A stretch of DNA of 61,868 bases from positions 1-61,868 of the forward strand of contig JBBHKE010000050.1 of assembly GCA_037447655.1 (NCBI GenBank), in the 5' to 3' direction. The first letter of the stretch is position 1; each line of letters begins with the position of its first letter. Shown here one piece after another: positions 18,998 through 60,635 of this stretch. Source of the DNA: Zygnema cylindricum (Eukaryota > Streptophyta > Zygnematophyceae > Zygnematales > Zygnemataceae). The notes beneath the pieces are model-generated. The model was not told the DNA's origin, did no database searches, and saw nothing but the letters and a program-made list of their open reading frames with translations. Made by a program: the position numbers and the translations under genes.

Positions 18998-18999
18998 AT

Positions 19000-19888
19000 G
19001 ATGAGATGCTCCAGAATCTATAATCCATTTACTTTTCTGAGCATTTGACTATGTGAGAACAAATTTAGTCTCATCCTGAATGGTCATGGCAAATGATGGT
19101 TTGTTCTGTCTAGTTTTGTCTTTATTACGACAAACTGAAGACTTATTTTTTGGTTTTCCACAACTATAACAAACAATCCTTTTCCTGAAGTTTTCTGTTT
19201 CTTTCTTTTTGAATCTACAGTCAGCAGTATGATGATTGGTTTTTCCACATATAGCACAAGCAGTTACAAACTCATTACGTTTTACTGACTATTTGCCTTT
19301 GACATAAAGAGCTGAATCTGACTCTTTTCCTCTTTTCTTTTAATTTCAACTTCTTCCTGATTGAAATGCTGACATACTGCATCAAAGTCGACAGTAGGTT
19401 AACTTTTCAAAGCCGTGATCATCATAGCATACTGTGATGGTAATGACCTAAACAGTGTAAGGATCAAATCATCATCATTCAGTTTTGTGTCGACTGCGGC
19501 TACATTAATTTAAGCTCTTTTAGTCTATTTATAAGAGTTCCATAGTATCTCCATTCTCCATACTAAAGTCCAGCAATTTGTTTTTTAATTGCATGATATT
19601 TGAAGGATTAATACGCTCATGTACAGTCCTTAACTTATCTCACATAGCTTTAGGTTTTTCTAACTCAACTATGTGTAAAAGTTGACTGTCTTCCACTGCT
19701 AGAAAAATTAACGTCGTTTCCTCTTCTTTCGTTCTATCATAACCTGGTGCCATTAAAACTTAGGTTTCAGTTCAGTGCCTGCAACAATACCCCAGTAATT
19801 CTTATATTTTAAAATGCGGGTCATCTTAGCTTTCCATAGTAAATAGTTACTACCATTAAATTTTCGGATGTCTGTAATTTTTCCTAGT
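19000..19888 (-). pseudogene. Copia gag (second element), decayed
   Basis: Broken frames with a zinc knuckle CAICGKTNHHTADC (about 19205-19260, a perfect CX2CX4HX4C), a second degenerate knuckle CYSCGK near 19150-19170, and UBN2-type gag segments upstream (MAPGYDRTKEEETTLIFLAV near 19690-19755). Several stops interrupt it. It belongs to a different copia lineage from the elements with the half-tRNA primer site. Confidence 0.7.
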
Positions 19889-33758: not shown

Positions 33759-34649
33759 TGTTGAAAAGGGGTAATTAGTAGTTCACTTCCCTATTTTAGT
33801 TTTGTTTTAAAGAAAGAGAGTAAGGATCAAAGGAGCGCCATGGCTGCCGCCATATTTAGAAAGTGGCAGTTTTTGCAGTAAAGGGTATTTTGGCTAAAAT
33901 GATGCCTAGGTCTAGATTTGAACCTGTGACCTCTAGATTCTATATAGCCTAACGCCTTAACCATTAAGGCGTTACGAAACGATACACGTGACGGGTTTCA
34001 TAACTATATAAACATTAACGAAACAGCTAATTAACAGCAGACTAACCAAAAGGAGCAATTTCTGCATGTACGCGAATCTGAACCGTGTAAAATATGTTTT
34101 GATCGGACGGCCAACATTATAGCCGCCACGCGAAGTGAACTTTTTGGCGGCATACGGATATAGCGTCACGCGGTGCCACGTGGCGCTACATTATTTGATA
34201 CCGGAGAAGATGGGAGGAGGAACCATGGCTTTCGATATGACAGGTGTCACCTTGTAGACCTTGTCGTACAATGGTTGTACAATAAGTACATCGCCCATTG
34301 TACCTTCTTGTACTTTATAGTGTTCCTATTGGACTAGGGTTTAATAGTAGGTAGTCGTGAGTAGGCAGACCGAGACTTAGTAATATTTAGGTACCTCTCT
34401 CTCTAAGAGAGCTTGTAACTATAAAGGTCATCTTTGACCAGCCATAACTTACTGCTCGGGTGAGCAAACTCACTGATTCTTTTTGCGTTTGACTCAGGGG
34501 AGTCTTGTCCTCACAGGGTTGAGAGTGGTCAAAATATTTGTGTGCCTGGGAGGCGCTTATTCAGCGGGAAAGTAGAAGGGGCAAATATTATCCTAGAGGC
34601 TTTACATAGGCTGCTCATTCTGTGGGTCAATGGAGACCATAGAATTTCA
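33759..34649 (+). mobile_element. 5' LTR of the young copia element
   Basis: TGTTGAAAAGGGG to ATAGAATTTCA. Contains GCCATGGCTGCC (about 33839), an antisense tRNA-like module (about 33911-33980), five GTAC motifs at 34264-34317, a CT-rich tract, the leader hairpins 34453-34466 and 34491-34504, and the gag start codon at 34630. Transcription start is not mapped; the hairpins are most likely in R/U5. Confidence 0.9.
33911..33980 (-). other. tRNA-Leu/Ser-like module in LTR (antisense)
   Basis: On the minus strand: GCCT-TAATGGTTA-AGGC, a 4-bp D-stem with a canonical D-loop containing the A-box TGGTTAAGGCG, then GTTAGGCTATATAGAATC, then AGAGGTCACAGGTTCAAATC containing the B-box. The acceptor and T stems do not pair, so it is not a working tRNA. 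It is repeated at 39231-39300 in the 3' LTR. Confidence 0.6.
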
Positions 34650-35640
34650 GGTTATGGGCCCACCCTCTAAGGTGCCCATATTTGATGGATCAGAATTTCT
34701 TTATTGGGAAATGATGATGGAGGGAGAACTATTTGAGAAGCATCTATGGGGCATAGTGTCTGGACAAATTCGATGCCCACCTCCACCTGGGTTTGGAGGG
34801 ACACGTTTTTCTGGCACCTCCGCCTCTACAGTTGGTAGAAAAGCTGCCACCATCACCGAGGATGAAGATGAGGAAGGAGAAGAGATTGTCATGGAAGGAG
34901 AAAAGGAAGGAGTTGCAACTCAAGTAACACCATTACCGACGGCGATACCGGCAGCAGCACCACCAGAAACAACGACAAGGGTTCAGACCGAAAGATCAGA
35001 GTATGATAAGTGGAACTACAAAGACAAGGTTGCTAAGCTCTTAATTCTTAAAAGTGTAGCAAAGGGCATTGCCATTCCCCTTATGCATGTCAAATCTTCA
35101 TCTCAGATTTGGATATCACTAGTTAACAAATATAAGAGTGGATCATTGCAGCAACAACAGTTGGCAGAAATATGATTGCAGTTTATTCTTATAAGGGAGG
35201 AAGTATGGATAATTATTGCAATGACATAGGAGCATTGTTTGGAGAGTTAGAGAGTGCAGGTAACTCATGGTCTGAGAGACAAAGAGTGAACACATTAATG
35301 ATGAAACTACCTGTAGAGTATGAGAATATCATTAACCGATTGCAGGACATAGGAGATAGCAATTGGAATTGGGATGACACTGTGGGAATGATTTTAGTGA
35401 AAGAAAGCACCATAGAGCTTAGAAGAGGGAGTCCAAGTGTTCAAGCATTGTTTACAAGAGCTGATTGGCGGAAGCGTGATGAGGAGAGAGGGAAAGATCC
35501 CTATTGAAACTTTGGTGGAAGAGGACAAGGAGGTGGCAGATTTGATAGATAGGGGAGAGGAACTTCTCGAGGAGGATTATGTCACTTCTGCAAGAAACCG
35601 AGACACTATATGGCAGATTATGTCAGACTTGCAGATCTTC
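34630..35640 (+). pseudogene. Copia gag of the young element
   Basis: METIEFQVMGPPSKVPIFDG opens the frame; residues 1-7 are encoded by the LTR. The first segment runs to a TGA at 35173-35175 (34630-35175). After a frameshift it continues as YKGGSMDNYCNDIGALFGEL, VNTLMMKLPVEYENIINRLQ and ILVKESTIELRRGSPSVQAL (35172-35507). More stops follow. The zinc knuckle CHFCKKPRHYMADY (about 35580-35621) has Tyr instead of the last Cys. About four nonsense or frameshift lesions in all. Confidence 0.85.
34650..34664 (+). promoter_or_regulatory. Primer binding site for a 5' half of initiator tRNA-Met
   Basis: GGTTATGGGCCCACC lies immediately after the LTR terminal CA. It is the complement of the anticodon arm of plant-type initiator tRNA-Met (GGUGGGCCCAUAACC), 15 of 15 from memory of that tRNA. 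Drosophila copia is the known precedent for priming from this internal position with a cleaved half tRNA. The site is also coding, as Gln-Val-Met-Gly-Pro-Pro of gag. Confidence 0.85.
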
Positions 35641-35767
35641 GACTGAAAGATGGTCAAGGAACCTCAAAGGACTGAGGAAAGAAAAAGGCTTTCCTGACTC
35701 AAGTTCTTGATGAGGAAGTGGAAGAAAAAACTGAACCTGAAGAGGAGCTTAAGGGCTTCTCCTTAAT

Positions 35768-35989
35768 ATGAAAAACACTGAAAAGTATGTCGACATTCCA
35801 CGGAGACAAAAGTGTGCTTTCGGAGGTAAGAAGGATCCACCCGAGGATGGGTGGATCATAGACTTAGGGGCTTCAATGCATATGTGCAAAGAAAAGCGGT
35901 GGTTCACTAAACTGAGAAAGATCCCAACAGTTGAGATAGAGTACGGAGATGGTAGAGTAAAAAACCACAAGTCTTGTTGGAACTGTTGA
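35768..35989 (+). pseudogene. Copia aspartic protease segment
   Basis: WIIDLGASMHMCKEKRWFTK carries the active-site region, with Leu in place of the Ser/Thr that normally follows Asp (DSGA). A one-base frameshift in the A-run of GTAAAAAACC near 35965 separates it from the rest of pol. Confidence 0.85.
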
Positions 35990-35990
35990 C

Positions 35991-37652
35991 TTGAAGGTTC
36001 TAGTTGATGGAAAGGCCTCAATTGTAACACTCTCAAAAGTTCTTTACATTCCACAACTAAGCAAGAACCTAGTCTCAACAGCTGTCCTAGATGAAAAGGA
36101 GTTTGAAACAGGAACTAGGAAAGGAATCTTCACAACAAGCTTTGATAATGAGGTTTATTTCATAGCTGAGAAGGGCAGTCAAGGAATGTTCAGAATTGTA
36201 CTTTGCAATGAAAAGAGTGTTCTCTACTCGTGTGCAAGTGAGATGATGCTTTGGCATAAAAGGTTGGGGCATGTGCATCTAGATAGATTAAAGAAAATGA
36301 AGAAAAAGGGAATAGTGGAGGGTATTACTATTGAAGATGATGAGACCTTTGATGATTGTAGTGGATGTGCCCAAGGGAAGATTCATAGACTTCCATTTCC
36401 AAAGGCAACCACATTTAGGAGAGAGAAAGTATTAGATCTAGTTCACACTGATGTTTGGGGACCAGCTAGGTATGCTTCACATGGGGGGAAGAGATGGATG
36501 TTAACTATCAGAGATGTTTGGTCTGGATACACGAAGGTATACTTTCTCAAACATAAGTCAGAGGTATTAAAATGTTTCAAAGAGTATAAAGTATGGAGTG
36601 AAAAGCTACATGAAACCTCAATAAAAGAGAAAAGAAGTGATAATGGGAAAGAATACACCTTCAGGGAATTTGAAGAATATCTTAAAGAAGAAGGAATTCA
36701 TCATGAGAAAACTGTTCCCTATAATCCGGAACAAAATGGAGTAGCAGAAAGAGTGAATAGAACTTTAGGAGATATGTCCAGAAGTATGTTAAGTGATAAG
36801 AGGATAGGGCTGCAGTTTTGGGCTGAGTCTATGAACTATGCTAATTTCATCAAAAATAGAGTCCTAACTTCGGCAAATAAGGAGGAAACTCCGTATGAGA
36901 GGTGGACAGGAAGAAAGCCTGATTTGTCTAGTTTGAGAGTGTTCGGAAGTCAAGTCTACAGTTTGGATTCCGATAAGACTAAATGGAAGTTAGAGGGAAG
37001 AGGGAAACCAGGATATCTTGTAGGATATGATGAGAGCACAAAAGGATACCGAGTGTATGACTTGAAAAAGAGAGATATAATTTTGGTAAAACACATAGTG
37101 GTGATGAATGAAGAGAAGTCCATTGATCCATTCAAATATAATAAGGAAGTCAAAATCAGATTTGAAACGGATCAGTTTTCTGACTTTGACTTTGAAAATG
37201 AAGAGAAGGAAGAGGGAGAAAAAGAAAAATCTGAAGATCTACCAAAGGAGAAGGAAGAAAGGACAACATCCGAGACAACGCCACAATACGAAGTGGAAAC
37301 CGATGAGGAACTTGATGAGACACCGGAATTGGAAGATAGGGAAGCTGAAAATCTCCCAAAACGAAACCCAAGGATGCCTTCCATACCGGCGTCCGATTTT
37401 GAAGGGGGAAGAAGAAGTAGTAAACGACTTCAAGAAAGACAAGTAAATAACCAACTCACAAAGATGTCTCACCCAGATGAACCTCAAACATACTTAGAGG
37501 CCATAAACACTCCAGAAAGTAGCTGGTGGATCACAGCTATAAATGAAGAAATGGCCTCTATCATGGAAGCCAATACATGGGAGTTGGTAGATTGTCCACC
37601 AGACCGAAAACCGATCGAATGTAAGTGGGTGTTTAAACTTAAATTAAACTAG
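35991..37652 (+). pseudogene. Copia protease C-term, pre-integrase, integrase and RT entry
   Basis: One 553-codon frame. Pre-integrase zinc motif: LWHKRLGHVHLDRL ... CSGCAQGK. Integrase catalytic residues are all present: first Asp in LVHTDVWGP, second in KRSDNGKEYTFREF, Glu in NGVAERVNRT. Then the IRVFG-like C-terminal part (SSLRVFGSQVYSLDS), a Glu/Lys-rich acidic linker, and RT entry ECKWVFKLKLN. Ends with TAG where the older copy has Ser (LNSDN). Confidence 0.9.
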
Positions 37653-39065
37653 GATAATACCATTGAGAGGTAAAAAGCTAGGTTAGTTGCAAAAGGTTAT
37701 ACACAGAAAGAGGGGATAGACTACGAAGAAACCTTTGCACCTGTAGTCATATTTCCTTCTGTTAGAATCCTTTTAAGTATAGCTGTAGCGGAGGATATGG
37801 GAATCCACCAGATGGATATTAAAACGGCCTTTTTGCACGGAGAGTTGGAAGAAGAAATTTACATGAGGCAACCGGAAGGATTCGTGGAAAGTGGGGAAGA
37901 AAACAAAGTTTGCAAACTGATAAAATCACTCTATGGGCTTAAGCAAGCCCCGCGACAGTGGAATATAAAGCTCGACGACTTTTTGACCGGTTTGGGGTAT
38001 ATCAGAATTAGTTCAGATCACTCTATATATTTATTTGAGGATGAGAATGGAGTGATATTTATTGCTATTTATGTGGATGATTTGTTGGTCTTAAGCAAGT
38101 CCTTAGATAAAATTAACAAACTAAAACAGGATCTTAGAAGCAGTTTTGATATGAAAGATCTTGGCGAAGCAAAGTACATTTTGGGAATTCAGATGGAAAG
38201 AGATAGAGGGAATAGAATTATAAGTCTACCTCAAAAAGAAGCAATCGGTAATATGCTAGAAAAATTTCAAATGGAGAAAGCAAACGGATGTACTACTCCC
38301 ATGGATTTGAAGAAAGTGAGTGAGGGGAGTGAAGAGGGAGGAATATTCATCATTAATGATGAGATGGAAGAGATAGAAAGAAAATTTATGGAAAATATCC
38401 CTTATCGGCAGATTGTAGGCAGTTTAATTTATTTTATGAACTGTACCCGTTCGGATATAGCTGCAGCTGTAGGTGTCCTTAGTAGAAATCTAAATGAACC
38501 AAGAAAGAGAGATTGGGAGGCTACCAAAAGGGTGATGAGGTATCTGGTGGGGACAAGGGAATTATGGTTGCATTTGGGAGGGGAGCACCCTGACATCACC
38601 ACTTGGAGTGATGCCAACTATAGAGATGTGCCTTTAAGGAGGTGTATGAATGGATATGTGTTACAAATTGGATCCGGTGCATGTTGTTGGAGTAGCAAGC
38701 AACAAAAAGTAGTTGCTCAGTCCACTATGGAGGCTGAATACATGGCTTCCTGTGCTGCCACCAAAGAATTAATGTGGGTTAAATCTCTTCTTGAAGAACT
38801 TGGGTTCATGAAGTCTGGAACTCAAAATGCTTTTTGTGATAATCAAGCTGCTATCTCGATTGCAGCTAATCCGAAACATCACTTCAAAGCTAAGCATATG
38901 GATATTAGACTAAGCTTTGTCAGAGTGAAGGTAGAAAAAAAATTTATTAAACTGGTTCATAAAACTGATAGAGAAATGATTGCAGACATGATGACAAAAG
39001 CAGTGCCTTCCCCTAAGTTGATTTATTGCAGAGAAAACTGTGGATTAAAATTGAAAAGTGACTAG
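37653..39065 (+). pseudogene. Copia reverse transcriptase and RNase H
   Basis: Same frame as the preceding segment, interrupted only by TAG (37650-37652) and TAA (37671-37673, Tyr in the older copy). RT: VAKGYTQKEGIDYEETFAPV, HQMDIKTAFLHGELEEEIYM, then AIYVDDLLVLSK with the catalytic YVDD. RNase H: TWSDANYRDVPLRRCMNGYV, STMEAEYMASCAATKELMWV, AFCDNQAAISIAANPKHHFK, holding Asp, Glu and Asp. Stop TAG at 39063-39065; a polypurine tract follows. Confidence 0.9.
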
Positions 39066-46136: not shown

Positions 46137-46233
46137 ATGGCTGCTGGCACAACCTTCGCGACTGTCCTGATTTTGGCGTGCCACGTGGCACTCGTAGCGG
46201 GAGACTTCAAAGGACCCTTGCCAGAGCCTGACA
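46137..46233 (+). CDS. Exon 1: signal peptide
   Basis: MAAGTTFATVLILACHVALV then AGDFKGPLPEPD: a short n-region, a hydrophobic core and a plausible cleavage after AG. The start is chosen for its GCCATGG context; the frame upstream has no ATG before a stop. Ends with A before GTAGGT (phase 1). Confidence 0.75.
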
Positions 46234-49200
46234 GTAGGTCTTCCCCTCCTTTACCCTTCCTTTTCGCCCTTCTTGGTCTGCTGCCCATGTATTCACACGT
46301 GCGAAGCGTGAATCTGATTGGGTCCTCCGCCTCGTCTGTCCGTACGGTTGTGCTGCAGAGTCGGCTCTGGAGGCGGTGAAGGCGGCCGTCGGGAACAAGG
46401 GGAACTTTCCGGAAATCGTGTGTGGTGGAGACCATTTCGCGTGCGACAATTCCCGTCGCGTGTATGCGATGTGAGCGACCATCCCTGCGTGCACTCTCGG
46501 CTGCAATGAATCCGCTCTGAATCTCGCACTGATTCTAACACCGAATCTCGCACTAAATATCGCATTGAATATCGCACTAAATCTCGCACTAAATATCGTA
46601 CTGAATATCGCACTGCATTCCGCACTGAATTCCGCACGGATGCATGGTGGGCAGAGTGCGGCACTCTCTGCTGCGATGCGCTTTCAGAGCCAGGCTGGGG
46701 GGATATGGGGGGGGGAAGCAGACGGGTGGGGAAGGGTGGGGAGGAAAGGGGAGGTGGGAGGGGGGGGAGGGGAGTGGAGGTGGGATAAGGGAATAAAGGA
46801 TGTTGGATCTCGCTAGAGAAAGTGGGTGGTGGGGGGAGGGAAAAGGAAGGAGAAGGGGTGAAGTGTCAAAATAATAGGGGGGAGGGAAGGGGAAGAGTGG
46901 TGGAAGGGTAGAGAGAGGGAATGGGAAGGGGAGGGAAGTGGGGGGAAGGTAAGGGGAGGGAAGAGACAATGGCTGCCTTTATTAGGAGAGGTAGGAGAGA
47001 GGGGTGAGGGAAGGAAGTGGGGAATAAGGAAAATTTTTAGAACAGGGAAGGCAAAAAGAGAGCGGGGGAGAGAGGTAGAGAATCAAGGATCTAGTTATGG
47101 CAGAGAGGCGGGAAAGGAAAAGGGGTGGAAAGAGTGAGGAACTTCGTCAGGAGAGGGAGGGATGAGGCGGAGGGAAAAGGGGAGAGAAAGGGGGGGGGGA
47201 GGGAAAAGAACGAGGGATCTTGTTAGAAGAGTGTTGGAGTAAAGTGTGAATGATGTACCTTTCACGTGTCTGAAAGGAAGCATTAAAATTTGCACTAAAT
47301 GTATAACAAATTTCTTCACAGAAACCTGTATTGATCTCCACACTGAAAAATCACAATGACTGTAGCAATGAATTTCGCACTAAAATTTGTACAGCATCCG
47401 CTGTGAAATTCAAATTGACTCTAACACCAAGTCTTGCACTGAATTTCGCACTGAAATTTGAGCATGACCCACACTGAAAATAGCACTAAATCTACTGAAC
47501 CTGGATTTGACTCTGCACTTATGCCATTTGAGACGGATGGAGAATAGGGGGAGTCCGGGGGGAGAATTTGATAGGAAAGAGAAGAAAAAAGAAAAGAAAG
47601 GAAAAAAAAAAGGACGGAGAGGGAAAGTGTGAAGATGGAATAGAAAGTTTGGTTTATTGACAAATAGAGGGGAAGGGGGGAGGAGGTGTAGTGACCTATC
47701 GGATTACGGTCGGGAGGGAAGCATTGCTCCGGAGATCGGCAACCTCACACGAATAAAAATATTGTGAGTGTAAATTGAGAGAAGAAATGCATCTCATATG
47801 ACGGTTTTTTTATGATACGAATAATGTTTCTCGTGTTGGTGACCATTTTTAAAAAGTGATGGAAAATGTTAACAAAAATTGTATTCCTTTATAAGTGGTA
47901 ACAATTGGGGAGGTATGCAAGATGGTGGCGGGAGCGGGGGTGAAAGGAAAAAAAAATATTCTAAGAAATAAAATGAAAGTAAATGACGGTGATTTAAGGA
48001 ATTTTAAACATTGGAGAATTGAATAAAAGTTGTAGTTGGTTAGATTGAAAATTTATGTTGTTTTTCAAAAAATCATTTTTAATAAGGAAGAATTCCGTAT
48101 TCGAGTGGTGATTCAATCTTTGAAGGGGTGCATTGGTGGCTTTGAGGCGATCACCACTTCAATAATTAACCACTGAATAGTATTTTGACGGTAAAGCAAT
48201 GTGTTCTAAAGGTAAATGTTTTTTTTCGTTTATTTACTCATTGTAAATTGATTATGGAAAGTGGAGGGATAAAATGAGGGTGATTTTGGATAAGTGGAAA
48301 AAAGTCATCTACTTTTTCATTTGCGCAAGTACAGTATTGGCTAAGTACATGTACATTGTGTTTACCAAGAATGTTATTATTATTAAAATCCAATCTTTTT
48401 TATATTGAAGACATTCGGAGCTTTGGGATCGGCATGCGAGGTGTCACAGATATGTAGGATACAACAAATTAAGTGGAAGTATTCCATCGTCCATCGGTCG
48501 ATTGACAACCCTCGAATACTTGTAAGACAAGCTATCGACATATGATCTACCAAGTGAATTAGTAACTAAGCTTGATACCTTAAATAGTATTGCGTATTGT
48601 AAGGGGTTGAGGAAGGCGGGGGGCCGTTTTTAGCAACTGAAAGCATAATATTATAAAGACAACTAAATAATATTATCAAAGAATATTATAAATAAAAAAT
48701 ATAGAAATATCATAATAAAATATCCTTAGTAATAATTCCAATTAAAAAGAATGAAAGGAAACTATAAATATAACTAATAGGTACAGTTATATAAAAAAAT
48801 TTTCAAATATCAGTAAACATAAATAATAGTGTAACTAAATGATCAAAAAAGTTAAAAGTAGTGATTGTAGAAATTATTTTTGATAATTTTCAAAAATTAA
48901 ATAATAATAGAGGCTAATAATTCTTGTTTATAACAAATAATTTTGTAATGGTACATAAATACTAACAGTCTTTTAAAAAAATAACACATACTAATGATAA
49001 AAAATACTTATTACTAGCAATACGAGTTCATGAATAACAATATGTAGTCATGGGAACAAAATATTAATAATGATAGGTCTCAATGAAGGCAATAGGAGGT
49101 TTTTGGATGCGGCTTCCGGTTGTCACAGATGGTTGGATATAAACACACTAATGAGTAATTTGTAACAACTACTTACATTCAATCAAGCGTAAAAAAATAT

Positions 49201-52200
49201 TTAGCGAAAACATAACTAATAACAAACGTCATAACATGTAACAAATTATTTTACGTAAATTTGGGAGGTTTGGGGGTGGGGATGCGAGGTGTCACAGAGA
49301 TATAGCTGGCAACCAGTTGAGTGGAAGCATTCCATCGTCCATCGGTCAACTAAAATCCCTCCAAACATTGTAAGAAATATATAAGAGAAAAATTTTACAG
49401 CTTTGAAACATCCCTCGAAACATTGTAAGACACATTTTGTAAAGGATAATAATACAAAAAATAAGAACGATCCTTTAAAAATAGTCTATTTTACGGGGTA
49501 GTCCGTGAGAAGGGGGTGGTAATAAGCATGTGAAAAGTAGTTTTGATCATAGCATATTATTATTAAAAAATGAAACAAATAATGTACATCTTATTTTCAT
49601 TAATATATACTAATGAAGAAAATATTTTATAATATTAACAATAATTTAAATTGTAAAAACAAATTAAATATAACGGTGATAAGTAAATTTGATAGAAAGA
49701 GTCAGTAACAATAATTGACTGTAGTAATAACTATTTATTAATAAGTAGTTATTATTAGTAACTTATTGTCATGAATATAAATAAGTAATATAAGCTGATA
49801 ATAATTAAGTAATTAATAGTGATGATGAATATTTAATAGTAAAAATTAACTACAATTGAAAATAACACTAACTGTCAACCTTGATCAATAATCAATGATA
49901 CAAGATTAATAATTAGTAATTGACAAATCATAAATAATAAATTATAATTCATAACCAGCCATTTAGCAAAAAAGATTAATGTTAAATAATCTTACAAAAT
50001 GGATAGTAAAACTAACAATATTCAACATGTTTGACTAAAAGGGGTTTGGGAGGTTTGTGGGTGGGGATGCGAGGTGTCACAGATATTTATCTCAAAACAA
50101 GTTGAATGGAAGTATTCCATCGTCCATCGGTCAAATGACATCTCTCAAATACTTGTAAGAAATTAATGAGAAATACACATTTTCCAAATTTGAAACGTCC
50201 CACTAAACATTGTAAGACATATTTTGCAATAAATAGTAATAGAAAAAAACAAAACCGTTCCCTTCAACAATATTAATTATTATAAATTGTGGATGGGCAG
50301 GGGCGGGAGAAAAAAGAAACTATTTATGATCATTTCGATTTAATATTAAAAATAAATTGACAAAAACAACAGATACAACAACTAATTATATTGATGTCGA
50401 AAAATGATTTAAATTTATTAGATAAATTAACATTAAACTATAAATAATAACAAAGAATAAATGATAATGGTAATTTTTAGAATCAATAAAATCAATCAGT
50501 AGTAAAAACCGATCATAATAATTAGTAATTTATGAACATAAATAAATAAAAATAAACTGATAATAAAATACTAATAAATACTGAAGATAAATATTTATTA
50601 CTAAAAACTGATTTTAACAATAAAAAATAACTAGTGATGCTAATTAATAAGTTAAAAGTTGATAATAACTAATCATAAAACATAGATGATAGCAAAAATT
50701 CATTAGTAACTTTAATAAGCCTGTTTGAGTAAAAGGAGTTTAGAGGATTGCGGATGGGGATGGGGGTTTCCACAGATATTTGTGGAGCAACCAGTTGAGT
50801 GGAAGCATTCCATCGTCCATCGGTCAAATGACATCCCTCAATACCTTGTAATAAATATAGGAGAACACATTTTACAAATTAGTAACACCCCGCAAAAAAT
50901 TGCTGGACAAATTTTGTAGTAGATAATAATAAAAAAAAACCATAATTGATTTATTAACAATAATTTGTTTATCCCCTAGATTAGGGTTGTGGAGGGGGGG
51001 ATGGACAGCAGTCAAGTAAAAACTGGTTATGATCATAACAAGTCTATATAATTTAAAAATGATATAACAACTATCATTACAATTAAATTTGATTAATTTT
51101 GAAAATGTCAATGATTAATTACAAATAATAACAATATGTAAATGATAATAGCAATAAGTAAAACTAAAAACAATAATCAGTAATTATAATTGATAATTAT
51201 TAGAATTCCGCAAAATACGGGATGTGGCATGTCGTGAAGGGCAATCTCTTGCCAAGTCATAAGCAAAATCAACCGATAATAAATCATAAATAATACTAAT
51301 GATAAATATACAACACTATAAATTAATCATAACATTTTAAATAACAAAAATAAATAATGCTAATCAATAATCAGTCATTAATATTTATTAAACATGTAAA
51401 ATGGTTGATAATAGAAACTTTTTAATAACAATAATAATCCAATTTTGCGAGTCTTGAGGGTGGGGATGTGAGGTGTCACAGATGGCTTCAAATTAACAAG
51501 TTGAGTGGAAGCATTCCATCGTCCATCGGTCAAATGACATCCCTCTATAACTTGTAAGAAATAAAAGAGAATTGCACATTTCTACTTATTGGAAACATCC
51601 CTTGAAATCTTGTAGGATACGTCACTTAGATACTAGATAGATAAAATATTTAATTCATAAAATAAAACATAAGATAAAAAAAACAAAAATGATATCTGAA
51701 CAATTATGATCTTCATATGCGGGTGGAATGACATGTGAGCACGGGTGGGGGGGGGTGTTTAATTAAGAAAAATTTAAGTTTCAACCAGGATTTTATTACT
51801 TTTTAAATATTTTCCTATTTATAAATTGTAATTGTTATTATTAAGTAGTGTTTTTGATTTTAATAATTATCAACATTAATCTACTTACCATTATTTTCAA
51901 TAGCCATTAATCTGTTATTATCACGGCGGGATCCAATTTTGTTGCACCAGGAGCAAAAAATAAATAAAGAAAATATTACTTTTGAAACGAGTAAGTGTAA
52001 TGTTGATTAACTAAAAAGACATAAAATAATTGTTTTCTAAGATTTTTCGATAATAATAAAATAGCATTGAAAAAAACATAATATTAGAACTAATTATATT
52101 TATAATAAAACGATAAAAATACTTAATACTATCAGTATAAAAAAATAGGCCATTCTCATTTCCGCATTTGTAATTTTTTGGTGGAAAATCAATTTGGTCA

Positions 52201-55200
52201 AAAAACTTTGATTGATCACTTTTACCAAAAAAACGATAACTTTAACCTTTTTAAGGCTGATAAAGAATTGGAGAAATTATTGTCTTACTAACAACTTAAA
52301 ATCAATGGGGGAAACACATTTACACCAATAAGCACAATGCTGGATAAAATTTACAAGTACATAGTGCATAAATCATATCTTACATTTATTGGCGTCAACT
52401 TGCAACTGGTGTTTGAGTGTAAAGTACCTACGAGGTTTGGGGGTGAGGATGTCACAGGGACCTATCTGACAACCAGTTGAGTGGAAGCATTCCATCGTCC
52501 ATCGGTCAACTGACAATCCTTCGATACTTGTAAGAAGAATAAGATAAACTTACACGGAAAATCCATCGAAATCTTGTAGGGATCACCTACCAGATAGATA
52601 AATAAATAAATTAACAATAAATAAATACATGTTCATAAATAAATAAATAAACAAAAATGATGTTTTGAACAATTATGATCTTCGTATGTCGGTGGAATAA
52701 AATGTGGGCAAGGGGAAAGAGGACTTAAACGGAAAATCCATCAAAATCTTGTAGGGATCACCTACCAGATAGATAAATAAATAAATTAACAATAAATAAA
52801 TATATGTTCATAAATAAATAAATAAACAAAAATGATGTTTTGAACAATTATGATCTTCGTATGTGGGTGGAATAAAATGTGGGCAAGGGGAAAGAGGGGA
52901 GATTGAAGTAGTGAAACTTAAGTTAGAACAAGGTTATGTTTAATAATATATTGCATTATAATGGATGTAATTTGTTTCGTTATTGATATTTTATATATTA
53001 TCCAAATAATAAATTGTAATTGCTAATATTGATGACTATTATTGTTAATGATCAGTATTAGCATTAGTTTATTTATTTATTTTTTTGATATCAATAATTG
53101 CTTGTTACTTTTAAATTGGGCTTCAATTTTGTCTTACCAATAGTATAAAAATAATTCAAAAAATCATAGTTGCGATATGAGCAAATGAAATGTTGAATAA
53201 CTAAAAAAAACATAAAAAAAAACTGCTTTTTATGATTTTTAAATCATAAAAAATCAGTTAAAAAAAACCAGCTTATAATACAACTTATTACAGTTAATGT
53301 TGATAAATTATAATATATTTAATACGATCAGTATGAATAATTAGGCGAATTCCTTGTAGTTCACTGGTGGAAAGTCAATCTAGTAAAAAAACAAAAAATT
53401 GATTAATTTACTTTGAGCAAAAAAATGATAATTAATATTCCATTAAGGTTGGGAAATATAAGTAGTTGTTGTATTAGTTCCAACTGAAAATCAATGAAAA
53501 AAATACGTCTTTTTACACACACAAGCGCCATGTTGGATAGAATAAACAATAATGTTTTGCAAAAAAATCATACTTTACATTTGTTTATTGTGAACTTGCA
53601 ACGCATATTAAGTATGAAGTACCTAAGAGTTATGGGGGGTGAGGATGTCACAGAGTTTTACATGGCAACCAGTTGATTGGAAGCATTCCGTCGTCCATCG
53701 GTAAACTGAGATTTCTCTCCACATTGTAAGAAGGATTCCGTTTGAATAGATGCCTTTTTTTAATATTTAAAACGTAAATGTTAAATGAGTAAAGTTTCCA
53801 TTAAAGGAGAGGGAAAAAAGGTGGGGACTTGTGTGCGGGCCGATAGGTTTTTAAGCAATTGAAAAATTAATTATGAACAATTAAGGGATTTCAATTTTAA
53901 TAATGAATGGTGCATGTTTACCTTTTTGTTCATTACTGTAGCACCAACTCCATCGGACCCAAATCACGTTCAATATTGTTATCTAGCAGTCTGGGATAAA
54001 ACATTTCTTAAGTGGATTTAACAGGATCCAAACTTGTGCCCAAGTAATAAACTTAGAAATGGCCAGGGAACCAATCTTCACATTGAATTCCGCAACAGAG
54101 GTATATAAGTTTGTTTATTGTAAGAAAATTTACGAAAATTTAAGCTATTGGGCTTCCATGTCATTGTAACCTAAGCAAACTAATGTATGCTCCATGTTCA
54201 TTTCTACTCCTTGAGTCCTCTCGCCACGACTTATCCCAGAATTTCTTTTAACACCCGCATTCCTCTTACCATCACTTGTTCCCCACTCGCCCTCTCCCTA
54301 TCAAATCTTGAACAAATGAATACCCCACTTAGTAGTTGAACGAAAAAACAGTTTGTAAACAAAAAAAGTTATGTAAGGTTCTCATCTAGTGGTGATACAC
54401 ATGCTAAACAATTAAAAAAATGTTTTCCACCTAAGTAAAATTTGAAAACGAGAAAACATGAGATATAACAGTAATTATAATGAATTTTATAAAAAAAAAA
54501 AGTATTGGAACTGTGTGGAAGTTATTAAAACAACTGTATTATTTTCTACTTCTCAAAGATGGTGCTACAAGAAAATTCAGAGTAGGCTAGGAATGTGTTA
54601 TTCTTTTCTTTCATAACATACTCCATATCAGTTCCAAAATTTCACAACAAGGATTTTTTGTCAAATGTTGTGCTCGTGAATTTGATGATTTTCTCGTATG
54701 CTCGTGCGCAGGTTATTGAAAGACAACCTTTTGAGTGGCTTGATTTCGTTCCCGTTAGATTCTTGGGAATCTATGCCTGAATTTGACTTTGGAAACAACT
54801 TTCTTTCCGGTTCTGCAATAGTGTATAAAAAGACCCCAAATGTTTGCAACGCGACTATTGGGAACTGCTTCAATGTCGATGATCCTTTGCTGAAAAATTG
54901 TTCTTCAAAGGGGCAAAGGAACAAATTTCTGTGTTGGCAGTTCTGTAATGCTTCTCAACCGATGGGTTCGTGTGGCGGCCACGGCATCTGTCCTGGACTG
55001 AATAAGTCTTGCATATGCGATGCTGACTATTCCACGGATATAAGTTTCAACAACACATGCACTTTCAGTAAGTCTCTACACTGTCGACACTATCCACGCT
55101 AATTGACGTTTGTTTTTGCTTGTGGCCCTTTTCACACCCAACTAAAAAACGTGCCCAACAAATGTAACAACATATACTGGGTATTGTGAAGTTTTTTCAA

Positions 55201-58200
55201 CCTGATAGTTGCGCAATATGGAGTTTTATTTGTATAACGACTCACTTTCTGCATTTTTAACAAAATATGTGTATTTTTATCATCGCCAGCGTTAGTGACA
55301 ATTTTAACGAACTGCCATTATCTCAAACATGAATTATTTTTTTAAAAGTGTGTTGCAAGTTTGCTGAAATTGCGTCATGTGTCCAAAATTCCAAGGATAG
55401 TTCGTTTTCGAAAGTAAATAATGGTCTTAAATTTGTGGAGCCATCATCTTAGTTGTTTACGATTAGGGTCTGTGCATTGCTTAGTAATCACATTTTCATG
55501 CATTAAGCGCCCTTTTAAGTTATTGGGTCAATATAACCACAAATAACTTCTGAGATATTGTAAGGTCAACAACGTGCAAATGTATGCTTTTGATGTATGA
55601 TTTTGAATTTGGCTTCTTATTTTTGTGATGAATTTTGCAGAACCACGTGGGTTGGGATTATTAACACCGCCGCAAATATTATCTAACAAAACAAATCAAT
55701 TTTTCCGTTATGCAAGTTCTGGATATTTGTATTCTAAGGATAAGAAACCATCATGGCTGGTGGCGACCTCATGGAATTGGACTGCTCAACTACCTAGCAA
55801 CAAAGTCAAGGACCAATCTAGCTGCAGTAAATGCCCAAAGTTCCCTGAATTTGTTTTAATTTATCTAAAAATATGTCCTTCGTTATATTGAAATTAAACT
55901 CTTTGGTTCAAATGACCTTCATTCAAGATTTTTGTGGCTATTAGCACACTAATGCAGCAAAACCAACTCAACGAAATGGGATTTATTTTTGTCATGTTTT
56001 TGTGAATCGATAAGAAGGCAGACTATGCAAATAAATGACAATTCGAATGGTTAATTTTTTTGTTCCTTTTTTTTTGTTATGTGTAGATACATGCTGGATC
56101 ATTTCTTCTTTCACTGCCATTGAACATGCTTATTACATTGCAAACGCGGGAACACAACCTCTCCCTGACTTTCCAGCCGGGCAAATGCTTAATTGCTCTA
56201 AAATTACCTGCGCAAGAGGAGGTTGGCCGAACGAAGCTTTTGATTACGCTGCAAACATTGGTCTTTTATCATCGAAAAATTTCACAAATGAAAGTACCTG
56301 CAAATTGGTCAATGTACGTAAATGTTTGTGCCTTCCAGATATCCTCATTTGTGTTTTTTCTCCTGTCCTTTTATATATTTAGGATTTCTTGTATGACATT
56401 TTCTCTCTTTCTTTCTTTTTTTTCAATGTTTAAATCAGATATCTTGCAAGCACATAATTTCTGACTATGCTTCCAAATATCCTCCACGTACTCCGTGTCT
56501 ACTTTTTTTTTTTCTTTATTGCTCTTTATGATCTTTCGCATACCTGGTTCACCCTATCTGCTCACTTTTCTTCAACATTTAATTACGCACCCTGTAATTA
56601 CTCTTTTTACATTCTTCACGTACTTTCAAAACATAATATTCATGGACTGATTTTTTAACGATGAAATTATATACCCTGTGTTCACTTTTTGTAAATTCTT
56701 CACATTTTTTTACAACATAACATTCGCATGTGATGATTTTGCAGAAATTAAACGGAATACAAATTTTATCATATGATAGAATTCGAATGAATGGCTGGAG
56801 TGGCCTCTTATTGGCTCTTCAACAGCAGCCATCTGTGGTGGCTATCGAGGCCAGCTCCTATGCTTTCATCAATTACAACCCTGAATTAGTGAGCACTTTC
56901 GCATTTCTTTTAATTTTATGCAATCTACATATGTTTTTTGGGAATATTCTAATGATGTGAGACCAATTCGAAATCATTGCTGCAAAGTATTTTAACTGCG
57001 GTTAGAATCACTGGGCTATCCTCAGATGTCATCCTCAAATGTCTAATGTATCAAATTTTATAGAACTGTTGTGTGTGCTTTTATGAACTAATTTCACATG
57101 GTATACGATTATTTGTTGTGACACGCGTGTGTTTGGGATTGGTGCAGGGTGTCTTTGATGACGAGACTTGCTTCTCAAACGGGGTGGACCATGCGGTGTT
57201 AGTTGTTGGTTACGATTTGACAGCCGAGACGCCATATTGGCTCATTCAAAATTCATGGGGAACCAGTTGGGGTGATAAAGGATACATCCGTCTTAAAATA
57301 TCAAGTGGTTATGGGATTTGCGGAATCAATACTCAACCAGCTATCATACCAATAATGAAACCCAAAGGTAAGTTCGGTAAAAGACGTATATTTTGCTCAA
57401 ATTTTGTGTGACTCAAAAAGGATATGTAGGAGCAGCTGGCTATCTTTATAAATGCTAGTTTGTGAATTGAATGAACTATCATAGTATGGGATTGATTTTT
57501 TTCCATATACCGTGAGTGGGTGAAGTCAACGTGCTGATATGTACGCTTTTTTATATATTTTTCCTTCTGGGACATTTTAGCTGGTGATCTCTGCAACGTC
57601 AAAAATTATGCACAAATACAACAGAATGCTTCTATTGGTCCTGGAAGCATGAACCCATGTGGCAATGGTTTATGTACTTCAAACAGCAAAACATATACCT
57701 GTAAATGTATGGATCAATTTGTAGCCGTCAACAATACGGACGGAACCCAAACTTGTGCTCCAGGTGAGAGACATCATGTGTTTTCAGACTTCGTTTTCAA
57801 GCATGTTAAACATCTTTGATTTATTGTAGAAAACAAAGTATTTTTACATTTTCAGGTTTTCGCCAATGAGTAAGGCTGATTTAACACTCTAGCTTCAACC
57901 CAAAGAAATATACATCCGAAAGGAATTGGTTACTTGCTTTGGTCAAAAGCAATCTGAACACACGTTTGTTTTGTCGCTAGCCATTACAATTTTTCGTTTT
58001 TCTTTCTTATAAACGTAATTTGTCGATTGTTTTCAAGTGTTTCAAGATTATCTAAATGGCCTCACACCAATTTTTGTTTTGTTTAGCCTCTCCATGTACC
58101 TTCACATCGCGCAACCCTTGTGGAATGGGAACCTGCGTGGACTCTAAGGACAAACCGGGAACGTATGCTTGCGTTTGTGTGATGGGATATGCGGCGGACG

Positions 58201-60635
58201 ATGCAGACGGTTCTCTCGCATGTCTTCCAGGTGGGTTATGTCTACTTTTACCTTATTGCATAATGTTTGTCAAAACTGCTTTGAAGTAACGATTGAACGC
58301 GAATGTGATGAGTAATTTTAACAGCTCTAAGTTGAGAATCAAATTCATCAATATTTGTACAAATCCAACCTCAAAAGGCACAAAGTTTCTTTGCAGATAA
58401 TTCAACAGTTTTGCAGACATTTCGTTTTCTAAACTCTTTATAGATTAAGGTTAGTCAGGATTTCAGTACATGGTGCAAAAATATTTAATTTGTTGAATCA
58501 ACCACATGTAAATGCATGACGTAAATTTGAAGACATGGTACACCGCAAATCGCTTTTAGTGTTAATGTTTTTTTTGCCACTTAATACATCTTTTCTCCAT
58601 ACACACTTGTCGGATTATGGATCTGACGGTGGCGATTGAAAGGTAAGATTCTTAGCTTCCGATTGGCGGTCTCAAATTGAATATCGGACAAGTGTGTATG
58701 GAGAAAAGATGTTTTAAGTAGCAAAAAATTTGTTAACAAATAGCGATACACGGTGTAGCATGGAACGCTTTCCTGGTTATATTAATACGATATGTGAAGT
58801 TTTTGTTGCTGTCCACCAACGATTGTCCTTCAACCTTATTTTTTCCTTCATGGTTTATTTTTGTTGCAGCTGCCGCCACATTAGGGGCAAAGGAATATGT
58901 TGTGCCAGTTGGTGGATCTATTTCTTGCTCGACTATCTTCACCACATATGGCATCTCACAACAAAATTTCTTAAAACAAAACAAGGTTTTATTTCTATTA
59001 CCTTTAATCCAATGTTTTTTTATGTATGTACGATCAAACTTTTGGTTTTGTTCGTCAATGACTGCTCAAATTGAAGCAACTATCGTTTTTTTTCAAAGGT
59101 AAATAATGCAATGGCAGTAGTCCGTTGCATAAATAATGTATTTTATTTGAATACTAACCTAATAACATTGCGGAAATACATTTGGGTTGAGCTTCAGAAC
59201 TTAAATTGCAGCCGGTTTCTCCCAAAAGGTGCCAAAGTTAATATCACCAACTCCATAGAATGTTCCCTAATTTATGCTGCGGAAGAGGTAAGTTTTTGTT
59301 CTTGTGAACCACGCTATTTTCTTTTCATTCAATCTGATTTACATGTGCTTAGAGCTTTTAGAGCCTTGATGTAACTCTTCGTTTCTTCCGAAAATAATGG
59401 TTATGGTTATTGGCTCCATTATTATGGTCTTGTATTTTAGCATTTCCATTTGGGTACTTGATTAATTTTGGATAGCTGATCTATACAAATCGAACTTTGC
59501 AGGGCGATTCGTGTGATTCCATAAAGTATAAGTTTCAACTCAGCAGCTACGTAAATCTCGGAGGAGCAAATTCTCCAAATCCGGACTTGGATTGCTCAAA
59601 TTTGAAACCTTTTCAACAGGTGATTTTGGAATACCTTAACCTTACATTTAAAATTTTGTTGCATGAATGGACACTAATGGAAAGTGCGATGTAATTTTCC
59701 TCAATCTTTGACGACTTAATATATTGCTATGCTTCCATTATTGCGTCACTTAAGACATGCAAAAATTCTGATGATTTTGTGTGATGTGCTTGCGAAATAA
59801 ATCCGTTTTTGCTAGATATGCATTACGAAGGGAGAATTGCCATTTCGTGGACCCTGTACCCGTCCATATAGCATTAAAGGGGGGGAAACATGCGCAAGCA
59901 TCATTCGTGAATATATGAATGGAAACGCGACACTATTCTACACTTTAAACCCTGGTGTGTATTGTGGTCATATCCGGGAATATTCTGATGATGATAGCAA
60001 CTTTAAGCAAGAGGTAAGAACAATTCCATCGCGTCAATTTTTTTTTTAGTTTTAAAAGTTTCAATCCATAACTAACAATCGTTCTTTCCAAAAAACCATA
60101 TTTCATTTTTTGCCTTATCAAAGTTTAATGGCACAAGGTTTTCCTTATTCGTACTTTCGATTTGCAAGTTTCTCGTATACCATCCGATGTGCTTAAGCTT
60201 GACAGATTACTATCATGGATGTGTGGGTACTATGGTTTTTGCAATCTCCTATACTAAATATTTTAGCCCTTTGTGGTTGCCTTTTGTCTAAAACCACGGT
60301 TTGTAATTTCTATTACGCAAAGTCTATCTAGTGTGGAAAATAATGTTCAGAATGGATGTTGTTTCTCTTTTGTTCCTCAGGTTTGCTTAGACAGTGTGGA
60401 CCTTGGAGGTGCAATAGCAGGATGCAGTGGGACAGCTGTCACATTGGCAACCTCACACAACTGTGCCATTTTGAGAACCAATTACTTCAAAGATGATCCT
60501 AAGACAAAAATTAAACCTGCATCCTTTCTCACTTTAAATAAGTTCGCTTGTCAAAACTCTGCACTTAACACTATTCGTGCAAAGGCCAAAAGAGCCAGTG
60601 TAACTCCCAAAATTTGTACTCCAAAACTGAGATGA
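46137..60635 (+). CDS. Secreted LRR - papain (C1A) protease - EGF - LysM protein, 22 exons
   Basis: CDS exons: 46137-46233, 46359-46470, 47692-47763, 48450-48521, 49298-49369, 50083-50154, 50776-50847, 51482-51553, 52458-52529, 53654-53725, 54712-55067, 55641-55826, 56087-56313, 56745-56888, 57148-57367, 57581-57763, 58087-58230, 58870-58985, 59198-59287, 59503-59619, 59816-60013, 60381-60635. Every junction is GT-AG with matching phase, giving about 1006 residues without a stop. Domains: signal peptide 1-22; LRR cap about 33-70; LRRs about 71-295; EGF-like about 338-378; C1A protease about 410-615; EGF-like about 664-698 and 702-748; LysM units about 757-803, 808-859, 870-925 and 939-980. 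Protease residues Gln439, Cys445, His581 and Asn601 are present; no I29 propeptide is recognisable. There is no membrane segment after the signal, so the product is probably secreted. Likely role (inference): proteolysis directed by LRR ligand and glycan binding in the wall or apoplast. Confidence 0.85.
46359..46470 (+). CDS. Exon 2: LRR N-terminal cap
   Basis: Joined codon AAG, then SALEAVKAAVGNKGNFPEIV and CGGDHFACDNSRRVYA. This is the familiar plant cap layout (AL..., then a Cys pair around an aromatic residue, then R-V before the first repeat). Ends AT before GTGAGC, completed to Ile by the next exon. Acceptor TTGTGCTGCAG. Confidence 0.8.
46530..46650. repeat. Intronic short tandem repeat (ATCGCACTGAAT type)
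   Basis: About seven imperfect repeats of 12-18 bp based on AATATCGCACTAAATCTCGC in intron 2. Similar CGCACTGAA motifs return at 47430-47480. Confidence 0.75.
46680..47230. repeat. G-rich purine tract in intron 2
   Basis: Long runs of GGGGAGGGG and GGGAAGGGG on the coding strand, with many G-runs of four to eight. Potential for G-quadruplex in the transcript. The minus-strand Pro/Ser/Leu-rich ORFs are composition artefacts. Confidence 0.8.
47692..47763 (+). CDS. Exon 3: LRR 1 (divergent)
   Basis: 72 nt, phase 2 to phase 2. Reads DLSDYGREGSIAPEIGNLTR plus IKIL with the split Leu: the usual first repeat after the RVYAI of the cap. It differs clearly from the seven later repeats (APEIGNL rather than PSSIGQ). 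Acceptor GGAGGAGGTGTAG is G-rich; donor GTGAGT. Confidence 0.8.
48450..48521 (+). CDS. Exon 4: LRR 2
   Basis: 72 nt. YVGYNKLSGSIPSSIGRLTT plus LEYL. Acceptor GGCATGCGAGGTGTCACAG, donor GTAAGA. Spliced codons at both ends give Leu. Confidence 0.85.
49129..49158 (+). pseudogene. Relic LRR exon
   Basis: After GGTTGTCACAG the sequence ATGGTTGGATATAAACACAC aligns with the first 28-30 bases of the LRR exons (WLDINTLMS versus WLQINKLSG), then homology stops. The conserved intron lead-in GGAGGTTTTTGGATGCGG is also present. It is an abandoned exon copy. Confidence 0.6.
49298..49369 (+). CDS. Exon 5: LRR 3
   Basis: 72 nt. DIAGNQLSGSIPSSIGQLKS plus LQTL. Acceptor GGGGATGCGAGGTGTCACAG, donor GTAAGA. 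Confidence 0.85.
50083..50154 (+). CDS. Exon 6: LRR 4
   Basis: 72 nt. YLSQNKLNGSIPSSIGQMTS plus LKYL. Acceptor identical over 20 bases to that of exon 5; donor GTAAGA. Confidence 0.85.
50776..50847 (+). CDS. Exon 7: LRR 5
   Basis: 72 nt. YLWSNQLSGSIPSSIGQMTS plus LNTL. Acceptor GGGGATGGGGGTTTCCACAG; donor GTAATA is weaker than the others. Confidence 0.8.
51482..51553 (+). CDS. Exon 8: LRR 6
   Basis: 72 nt. WLQINKLSGSIPSSIGQMTS plus LYNL. Acceptor GGGGATGTGAGGTGTCACAG, donor GTAAGA. Confidence 0.85.
52458..52529 (+). CDS. Exon 9: LRR 7
   Basis: 72 nt. DLSDNQLSGSIPSSIGQLTI plus LRYL, the closest to the plant LRR consensus. First base is G, so the split Leu is TTG. Acceptor GGTGAGGATGTCACAG. 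Confidence 0.85.
52548..52897. repeat. 175-bp tandem duplication in an LRR intron
   Basis: Two near-identical copies, 52548-52722 and 52723-52897, each beginning ACTTA(C/A)ACGGAAAATCCATC and containing a TAAATAAATAAA run. They are more alike than any pair of LRR introns, so the duplication is recent. Confidence 0.85.
53654..53725 (+). CDS. Exon 10: LRR 8
   Basis: 72 nt. VLHGNQLIGSIPSSIGKLRF plus LSTL. Has the only third-position change in the CCATCGTCC core (CCGTCGTCC). Acceptor GGTGAGGATGTCACAG. Confidence 0.85.
54712..55067 (+). CDS. Exon 11: last LRR, Cys-rich linker and EGF-like 1
   Basis: Opens LLKDNLLSGLISFPLDSWES and FDFGNNFLSGSAI, which close the LRR solenoid. Then a Cys-rich linker (VCNATIGNCF, LLKNCSSKGQ, FLCWQFC) and an EGF-like unit SCGGHGICPGLNKSCICDAD ending in NTC. 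Ends A before GTAAGT. Confidence 0.85.
55641..55826 (+). CDS. Exon 12: start of papain domain
   Basis: KPRGLGLLTPPQILSNKTNQ leads to PSWLVATSWNWTAQLPSNKV and KDQSSC. WNWTA stands for the family's DWR; the Gln of VKDQ is the oxyanion-hole residue. There is no ERFNIN or GNFD propeptide motif before it, which is unusual for C1A proteases. Confidence 0.85.
56087..56313 (+). CDS. Exon 13: catalytic Cys of papain domain
   Basis: Completes SCNTCW (family CGSCW) with the nucleophile Cys445, then IISSFTAIEHAYYIANAGTQ, FPAGQMLNCSKITCARGGWP and NEAFDYAANIGLLSSKN. This matches the LS.Q.LVDC...GC.GG segment. The substitution of GS by NT around the Cys is atypical but keeps Cys-Trp. Confidence 0.9.
56745..56888 (+). 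CDS. Exon 14: papain domain, middle
   Basis: KLNGIQILSYDRIRMNGWSG, LLLALQQQPSVVAIEASSYA, FINYNPEL. QQPSVVAIEA corresponds to the NGPVSVAIDA strand of papain. Phase 0 at both ends. Confidence 0.85.
57148..57367 (+). CDS. Exon 15: catalytic His and Asn of papain domain
   Basis: GVFDDETCFSNGVDHAVLVV (His581), GYDLTAETPYWLIQNSWGTS (Asn601), WGDKGYIRLKISSGYGICGI: a textbook C1A C-terminal half. Confidence 0.92.
57581..57763 (+). CDS. Exon 16: EGF-like 2
   Basis: AGDLCNVKNYAQIQQNASIG then MNPCGNGLCTSNSKTYTCKC and ending TCAP. Six-Cys EGF spacing with an extra upstream Cys. Phases 1-1, so it is an exchangeable module. Confidence 0.85.
58087..58230 (+). CDS. Exon 17: EGF-like 3
   Basis: SPCTFTSRNPCGMGTCVDSK, then GTYACVCVMGYAADD and ACLP. 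Phases 1-1, the same as exon 16, consistent with tandem exon duplication. Confidence 0.85.
58539..58757. mobile_element. MITE in intron 17
   Basis: TIR-like ends TACACCGCAAATCGCTTTTA and its inverse TAGCGATACACGGTGTA, with TA at both ends. Inside, TCTTTTCTCCATACACACTT is inverted at about 58692-58711, so the element folds almost completely. It lies between the EGF and LysM exons on neutral ground. Confidence 0.7.
58870..58985 (+). CDS. Exon 18: LysM 1, first half
   Basis: AATLGAKEYVVPVGGSISCS, TIFTTYGISQQNFLKQNK: the Y.V..GDS...I...Y.IS...L...N pattern of LysM. Donor AAG|GTTTTA is weak. The phase and the continuation in exon 19 support it. Confidence 0.75.
59198..59287 (+). CDS. Exon 19: LysM 1 end and LysM 2 start
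   Basis: NLNCSRFLPKGAKVNITNSI, ECSLIYAAEE: the N.NCS.L.PG..V.I end of LysM 1 and the Cys before LysM 2. The acceptor GAGCTTCAG was chosen because it restores the LysM alignment in frame; an acceptor at TTTTTTTCAAAG (59099) would add unrelated residues. Confidence 0.7.
59503..59619 (+). CDS. Exon 20: LysM 2
   Basis: GDSCDSIKYKFQLSSYVNLG, GANSPNPDLDCSNLKPFQQ: GDSC.SI...F.LS...NP.LDCSNL is typical of plant LysM proteins. Phase 0-0. Confidence 0.85.
59816..60013 (+). CDS. Exon 21: LysM 2 end and LysM 3
   Basis: ICITKGELPFRGPCTRPYSI, KGGETCASIIREYMNGNATL, FYTLNPGVYCGHIREY. C..PY.IK.GETC.SI and LNPG are clear LysM marks. Confidence 0.85.
60381..60635 (+). CDS. Exon 22: LysM 3 end, LysM 4-like tail, stop
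   Basis: VCLDSVDLGGAIAGCSGTAV, TLATSHNCAILRTNYFKDDP, SFLTLNKFACQNSAL, then a basic tail (IRAKAKRASVTPKICTPKLR) and TGA. The fourth LysM is weaker, lacking the GDT turn. No membrane anchor, GPI signal or kinase follows. Confidence 0.8.
   Translation, partial: VCLDSVDLGGAIAGCSGTAVTLATSHNCAILRTNYFKDDPKTKIKPASFLTLNKFACQNSALNTIRAKAKRASVTPKICTPKLR

Follow-up and report, generated by a model that had tools for sequence, protein, structure and literature searches.

The window, by which we mean the whole stretch of 61,868 nucleotides of Zygnema cylindricum DNA analysed here, contains one gene that joins plant-type LRRs, a C1A (papain-family) protease, EGF-like units and LysM repeats. It is a genuine single gene and one member of a large, divergent family of this zygnematophyte alga. 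We give somewhat better than an even chance (about 0.55) to the full reading, in which its product is a modular protease that is secreted, tethered by its LysM repeats and addressed by its LRRs. The tethering and the addressing are predicted from domain content.

Gene model and domain content

Exons were rebuilt from splice sites and phases. This yields a single open frame of 22 exons with GT-AG introns, whose spliced form contains no internal stop and ends with TGA at 60633-60635 (Table 1). The earlier note had described 22 exons with matching phases and about 1006 codons up to a TGA, and the rebuilt model returns the same coordinates and length. Modules of the 1006-codon protein follow in the order signal peptide, plant-type LRRs, EGF-like unit, C1A protease, two EGF units and LysM repeats. 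An acceptor of exon 19 at 59099, located 99 bases upstream and giving a protein of 1039 aa, was dropped in favour of 59198 (1006 aa) because the extra stretch is absent from relatives. The whole-protein Pfam scan, the search with residues 290-740 and the alignment of relatives were all done with the 1039-aa version.

Table 1. Features of the LRR-C1A-LysM gene (positions refer to the window)
Feature	Positions	Strand	Basis
Whole gene, 22 exons, 1006 codons + TGA	46137..60635	+	splice model; exon order repeated in paralogs
Exon 1, signal peptide	46137..46233	+	hydropathy; copy with 62% identity in locus L047
Exon 2, cap region N-terminal to the LRRs, with two Cys	46359..46470	+	splice model; no Pfam LRRNT_2 match
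Exon 3, first LRR (degenerate); 72 nt, phase 2-2	47692..47763	+	splice model
Exons 4-7, LRR exons	48450-48521, 49298-49369, 50083-50154, 50776-50847	+	each 72 nt, phase 2-2
Exons 8-10, LRR exons	51482-51553, 52458-52529, 53654-53725	+	each 72 nt, phase 2-2
Exon 11: last LRR, LRR C-terminal cap, Cys-rich stretch, EGF-like unit 0	54712..55067	+	one open frame
Exons 12-15: short linker, then C1A protease	55641-55826, 56087-56313, 56745-56888, 57148-57367	+	Pfam; no I29 match in linker
Gln439 codon, oxyanion-hole Gln	55814..55816	+	invariant in four-protein alignment
Cys445 codon, nucleophile	56092..56094	+	invariant in four-protein alignment
His581 codon	57190..57192	+	invariant in four-protein alignment
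Asn601 codon	57250..57252	+	invariant in four-protein alignment
Exons 16-17, EGF-like units 1 and 2	57581-57763, 58087-58230	+	Pfam
Exons 18-22, LysM-like repeats and tail	58870-58985, 59198-59287, 59503-59619, 59816-60013, 60381-60635	+	Pfam; profile vs PDB

Exons 3-10 hold one LRR each, and the seven exons from 4 to 10 are 62-83% identical in pairwise comparison. Other repeats lie in introns: intron 2 contains a 12-nt array (46503-46630), which by eye resembles sequence behind exon 2 in locus L047, and intron 9 a tandem duplication of 175 nt (52548-52897). Elsewhere in the window, Ty1/copia-like retrotransposon frames are found at 6896-10048 (-), 15624-19048 (-) and 34597-39065 (+), the third consisting of two long frames; their integrase, reverse transcriptase and RNase H text was recognised by eye.

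Pfam detects LRR_1 (seven stretches) and LRR_8 in the window protein, indicating a plant-type LRR solenoid. Peptidase_C1 (PF00112) is matched with E=4e-40 and 138.8 bits (cut-off 20.7). LysM (PF01476) is matched with 27.0 bits (cut-off 20.9); E is 3e-5 when the whole protein is scanned and 4e-6 for its C-terminal piece, where two LysM stretches are found. EGF exceeds the Pfam cut-off in the window protein only when it is tested in pieces, and EGF unit 0 falls under this cut-off here and above it in P0002 and P0003, two relatives described below. LRR, EGF-like and LysM modules are thus present in the same frame, as previously claimed. Among Pfam families that the earlier note had proposed for checking, LRR_8, Peptidase_C1, EGF (in pieces) and LysM are matched, and LRRNT_2 is not matched in the window protein; the Mesotaenium relative does match it.

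No match to the I29 propeptide (PF08246) was obtained at E up to 10 in the whole protein or in the linker, HMMER filters dropping weak ones. Pfam also gives no match to a granulin domain after the C1A unit, where EGF and LysM stand instead, and none to a kinase in the window protein. Hydropathy over 19 residues exceeds 1.6 in one segment only, which is N-terminal (exon 1), and searching for a transmembrane segment revealed no 19-residue stretch above 1.2 beyond residue 30. Carrying a signal peptide but lacking a membrane segment, the protein should be secreted. The proposal of a secreted protease with two recognition-type ends is supported by these features, by Pfam matches to LRR, C1A and LysM and by the recurring module order.

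Gln439, Cys445, His581 and Asn601, named before as C1A residues, are all located at these positions. Cys445 is preceded by Thr, as opposed to Ser in papain; other copies have Ile, Val or Asn. A structure model of the protease of P0003 (residues 191-400) has mean pLDDT above 65 in 18 of 21 ten-residue blocks (range 48-91). Among the best 50 structures retrieved with it by Foldseek, mature papain-family enzymes reach TM scores (by target) of 0.82-0.90 and pro-forms 0.62-0.64. The papain fold is thus shown by the model of a relative, P0003. A full-length structure model of P0002 was set aside as too weak (mean pLDDT 51.6). In the PDB, the LysM profile matched a pair of LysM chains named "Chitinase A" (E=1e-10 and 7e-7), from horsetail and fern, as well as Ecp6 (4e-4). 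Matches to these chains and to fungal Ecp6 suggest GlcNAc polymers as putative ligand.

Relatives in other organisms and paralogs in the genome

Using residues 290-740 as query, three proteins were found among 2985 candidates: P0002 and P0003, assigned to Mesotaenium endlicherianum by their "Mesen1" names, and P0004 from Closterium sp. Naga37s-1. P0002 and P0004 contain LRR, C1A and LysM according to Pfam, and their EGF units are also visible in the alignment, from which, and not from its Pfam list, EGF was assigned in P0004. P0003 begins at the LRR end and has the remaining modules in the same order, with three LysM stretches. The arrangement LRR-EGF-C1A-EGF-EGF-LysM in one gene is therefore shared by the window, P0002 and P0004, and by P0003 from the LRR end onward. 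The same architecture, for which the earlier note had suggested searching streptophyte algal and bryophyte proteomes, is thus found in Mesotaenium (P0002) and Closterium (P0004).

A profile search gave 38 matches among 7800 candidates. Six of them are relatives, namely P0002-P0004, P0005, P0006 and P0007; the other 32 are C1A proteins without LysM as judged by Pfam. P0005 contains C1A, EGF and LysM, and its name is that of a transcript assembly, so that in some relative one transcript joins these three modules. The metagenomic P0006 is 56% identical over 67%, and P0007 is a hypothetical protein of 566 aa from Trebouxia sp. C0004 with the order C1A-EGF-EGF-LysM. Presence of this core in a chlorophyte suggests that it may predate streptophytes. 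In a third protein search (69 matches, 7994 scored candidates) no further member was recognised by domains; this search omitted the known P0005 and P0007 and hence is not exhaustive. A tree of 19 rows, from which L036, L041 and loci lacking some of exons 11-19 were left out, groups the Z. cylindricum copies in a single supported clade that includes P0006 (100/99).

We also searched the organism's own genome (352.8 Mb, 2689 contigs). At least 150 matches each were obtained for Peptidase_C1 (150 scored of 303 candidates) and for the exon-11 protein (150 scored of 402 candidates), every scored candidate being a match, and at least 118 for the EGF2 exon (150 scored of 163 candidates). After 13 N-terminal pieces had been dropped, 137 protease places of the C-terminal exon type were kept (profile start 117 or later), some of which may be haplotype duplicates or pseudogenes. 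At no fewer than 59 of the 137, a same-strand match to exon 11 (LRR-cap/EGF) is found up to 15 kb upstream (median 3.1 kb), and pairs in wrong order or strand do not occur among the matches listed. The EGF2 exon follows within 10 kb downstream at 87 places or more, with two wrong-order pairs. Both neighbours accompany at least 56 places and either one at least 90; a further nine have Pfam LysM alone as partner, and 38 are without any partner exon among the matches listed.

Twenty loci were fetched as 10-kb stretches: the four other places with the protease exon on the contig that holds the window, and sixteen top-listed ones, all chosen for having exon 15, with some ordinary-papain-like places left out. 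Exon 11 and the exons behind it occur in the same order in 16 of the 20 (exon 13 was not found in L034). LRR exons lie upstream in 15 of these 16, the sixteenth having only 330 bases upstream. Exons 16 and 17 are present in 19 of the 20 loci and some LysM exon in 17. All of exons 11-22 were found in eight loci, six of them stop-free, among which L038 has its last exon cut by the end of the fetched stretch; L036 and L041 have one in-frame stop each under a mechanical splice choice. L030 and L031 appear incomplete or decayed, and L047 has exons 1-2 and neither an LRR exon nor exon 11. Catalytic residues are retained in most copies read; L039 has Arg in place of the Trp behind Cys, and in L030 the Cys motif is missing from the exon start found.

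Over aligned DNA the 20 copies differ from the window by 13-24%, on which ground haplotype duplicates were rejected as the sole source of copy number. L036 and L043 (96% over 9.9 kb), as well as L045 and L046 (98% over 3.3 kb), may be haplotype duplicates of each other. The same order in relatives, in fetched paralogs and genome-wide rules out a lone chance fusion: since it is shared with Mesotaenium and Closterium and with dozens of paralogs in the genome, the gene is one member of a large family.

The window's contig (C39, 244 kb) carries five protease-exon places (57145, 103574, 120932, 158759 and 213077), an exon-11 type match at 140476 and EGF2 matches at 74596 and 165093, which make up a local cluster with partial copies. 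Thirteen C1A places have Pfam LysM downstream and no exon-11 match among the matches listed (contigs C2338, C209 (two), C2476, C1552, C1597, C1920, C41, C791, C695, C2211, C1482 and C1321); they may constitute a second C1A-LysM subfamily that lacks an LRR front of this kind. Since the genome-wide Pfam LysM search missed the window's own LysM exons, it undercounts the LRR-C1A-LysM family. No listed protease exon lies within 15 kb downstream of 91 of the 150 listed exon-11 matches, many of which cover query positions 24-111 with 30-45% identity. Another LRR-EGF gene family may exist.

Selection, LRR variation and possible module exchange

Coding exons from the LRR cap to LysM are under purifying selection. 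With fragments containing stops excluded, pooled dN/dS ranges by exon from 0.13 to 0.60 in a close set (10-17 copies per exon) and from 0.12 to 0.56 in the full set (12-20 copies). In the close set the lowest values belong to exon 15, which holds the catalytic His and Asn (0.13), and exon 16 (0.14); exon 22 has the highest (0.60).

In LRR exons 4-10, changes are concentrated at five concave positions, where pN is 0.64 as compared with 0.10 elsewhere. Among 33649 five-column sets tested, the chosen concave set alone reaches its pN contrast. As pS is elevated at these codons too (0.60 vs 0.22 elsewhere), we make no claim of positive selection on the LRR face. Variability of exposed positions is common in LRR proteins in general. 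Entropy over 42 LRR exons (8 from the window and 34 from the loci) is highest at positions 1, 23, 4 and 22. The concave face of the exon-9 type, compared by eye, is almost stable among close copies.

Comparison with locus L039 (its positions 1-3007) revealed a sharp break. The window is identical to it over 52071-55026, a single mismatch follows at 55027, and divergence begins at 55078; near-identity of about 3 kb thus stops 10 bases past the exon-11 donor. Identity per 500 bases drops from 1.00 before the break to 0.67-0.92 after it, and downstream the highest identity to the window among top copies is that of L036 and L043 (84%). This break may reflect either module exchange or an assembly join. 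The large family shows signs of module exchange.

Possible function and comparison with known systems

Our best guess, made by analogy, is targeted proteolysis of microbial surfaces. LysM repeats would tether the secreted protein to GlcNAc-containing polymers, either the chitin of chytrid-like attackers or the wall of the alga itself. Chytrids are reported to infect Ancylonema, a zygnematophyte. Choice of a protein target or ligand would fall to the LRR solenoid, whose concave face is variable, and its cleavage to the papain unit; LRR and EGF would occupy the place of the I29 propeptide. Phase-symmetric single-LRR exons permit in-frame repeat gain and module swapping; such tandem 72-nt exons, together with exchange at the intron-11 boundary, could provide new target ends on a constant protease. 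A bolder version, which we regard as unlikely, is that a sister lineage of land plants has evolved a recombining repertoire of secreted "guided proteases", uniting LRR, apoplastic papain and LysM in one polypeptide and gaining new specificities via duplication of 72-nt LRR exons and swaps of LRR modules at intron 11.

That two adjacent genes, or an assembly join, have been read as one gene is very improbable. The break 10 bases past exon 11 would fit such a reading, and the single-gene model of this particular copy is derived from sequence, but LRR and EGF sit in one open frame within exon 11, and the order is shared by two other genera and by at least 59 places in the own genome, none of them reversed. 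For the family as a whole the two-gene reading is contradicted, and the view of the earlier note that this is one gene rather than two is upheld by Mesotaenium, Closterium and dozens of paralogs.

With the single gene taken as given, its protease might act on the alga itself, in remodelling of own wall glycoproteins or in conjugation, mating recognition or separation of filament cells, with LysM holding the proteins on the wall and LRR variants matching self partners. The secretion signal, the LysM repeats and the strong conservation of the protease across copies agree with this, as do relatives in Closterium and Mesotaenium, both of which are unicellular. In the comparison given in the Zygnema genome paper, Mesotaenium is termed unicellular-type. 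We judge, however, that 56 or more ordered loci, pseudogene-like copies and the module break resemble a recognition repertoire more than a wall enzyme, and hold a self-directed role to be possible, if rather unlikely. It is also conceivable, and in our opinion quite improbable, that LRR-EGF is an inhibitory pro-part of a recognition-gated zymogen or decoy, protease activity being altered by binding of a ligand or inhibitor, as if Rcr3 and Cf-2 were placed in one chain. The LRR-EGF part does stand at the propeptide position, with no I29 match in window protein or linker, and in tomato Rcr3 is reported to form a pair with Cf-2, a receptor-like protein. The P0002 full-length model is nevertheless too weak for an LRR-protease contact to be read from it, and neither a membrane anchor nor a signalling domain was found by Pfam and hydropathy.

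The window protein can be compared with several known systems. The earlier note knew of no described protein with such an order, which needs correction in one part: Van Holle and Van Damme (2019, PMC6362431, accessible part) have already reported C1A with LysM in one chain, in Archaeplastida that are non-vascular. No account of the LRR-fronted form was found in the literature searched. Likeness to the published proteins consists in papain domain and LysM in one chain. On the contrary, the accessible text of that paper makes no mention of an LRR front end, EGF units with LysM or family expansion, and EGF occurs there with GNA and ricin B. The terms "papain", "EGF", "LysM" and "lysin" are absent from the main text of the Zygnema genome paper. 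Trebouxia P0007 has C1A, two EGF-like units (under the Pfam cut-off) and LysM in the same order; it differs in having one LysM match and a long tree branch. The model deposited for it contains no LRR and seems truncated at the start, Peptidase_C1 being matched from profile position 24.

The catalytic residues and the C1A fold, the latter as modelled in P0003, are shared with papain-like plant proteases that carry I29, with or without granulin. The granulin-type ones are those of RD21 type. In contrast to all these, the window protein is without I29 or granulin match and carries LRR-EGF in front and EGF-EGF-LysM behind. LysM/LRR receptor kinases or receptor-like proteins resemble it in plant-type LRRs, its LysM being of chitinase/Ecp6 type, whereas the window protein has a protease, no kinase match and no transmembrane segment. 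According to the accessible parts of the respective papers, LysM receptor kinases are called exclusive to embryophytes (PMC10834447), and one is reported from Chara (PMC6362431). A large LRR-protease-LysM family would be a direct candidate for recognition at the outside of the cell by a route other than receptor kinases.

Tomato Rcr3 and Cf-2 are, in the accessible part of the literature on them, a secreted papain with an LRR partner, and the window protein may perhaps work in a like manner; there, however, two proteins are involved, as opposed to one chain in the window gene. The fusion would thus represent a single-chain parallel to the tomato pair of LRR receptor and papain. If the guided-protease reading is true, one polypeptide unites what land plants keep separate, namely LRR recognition, apoplastic papain and LysM glycan recognition.
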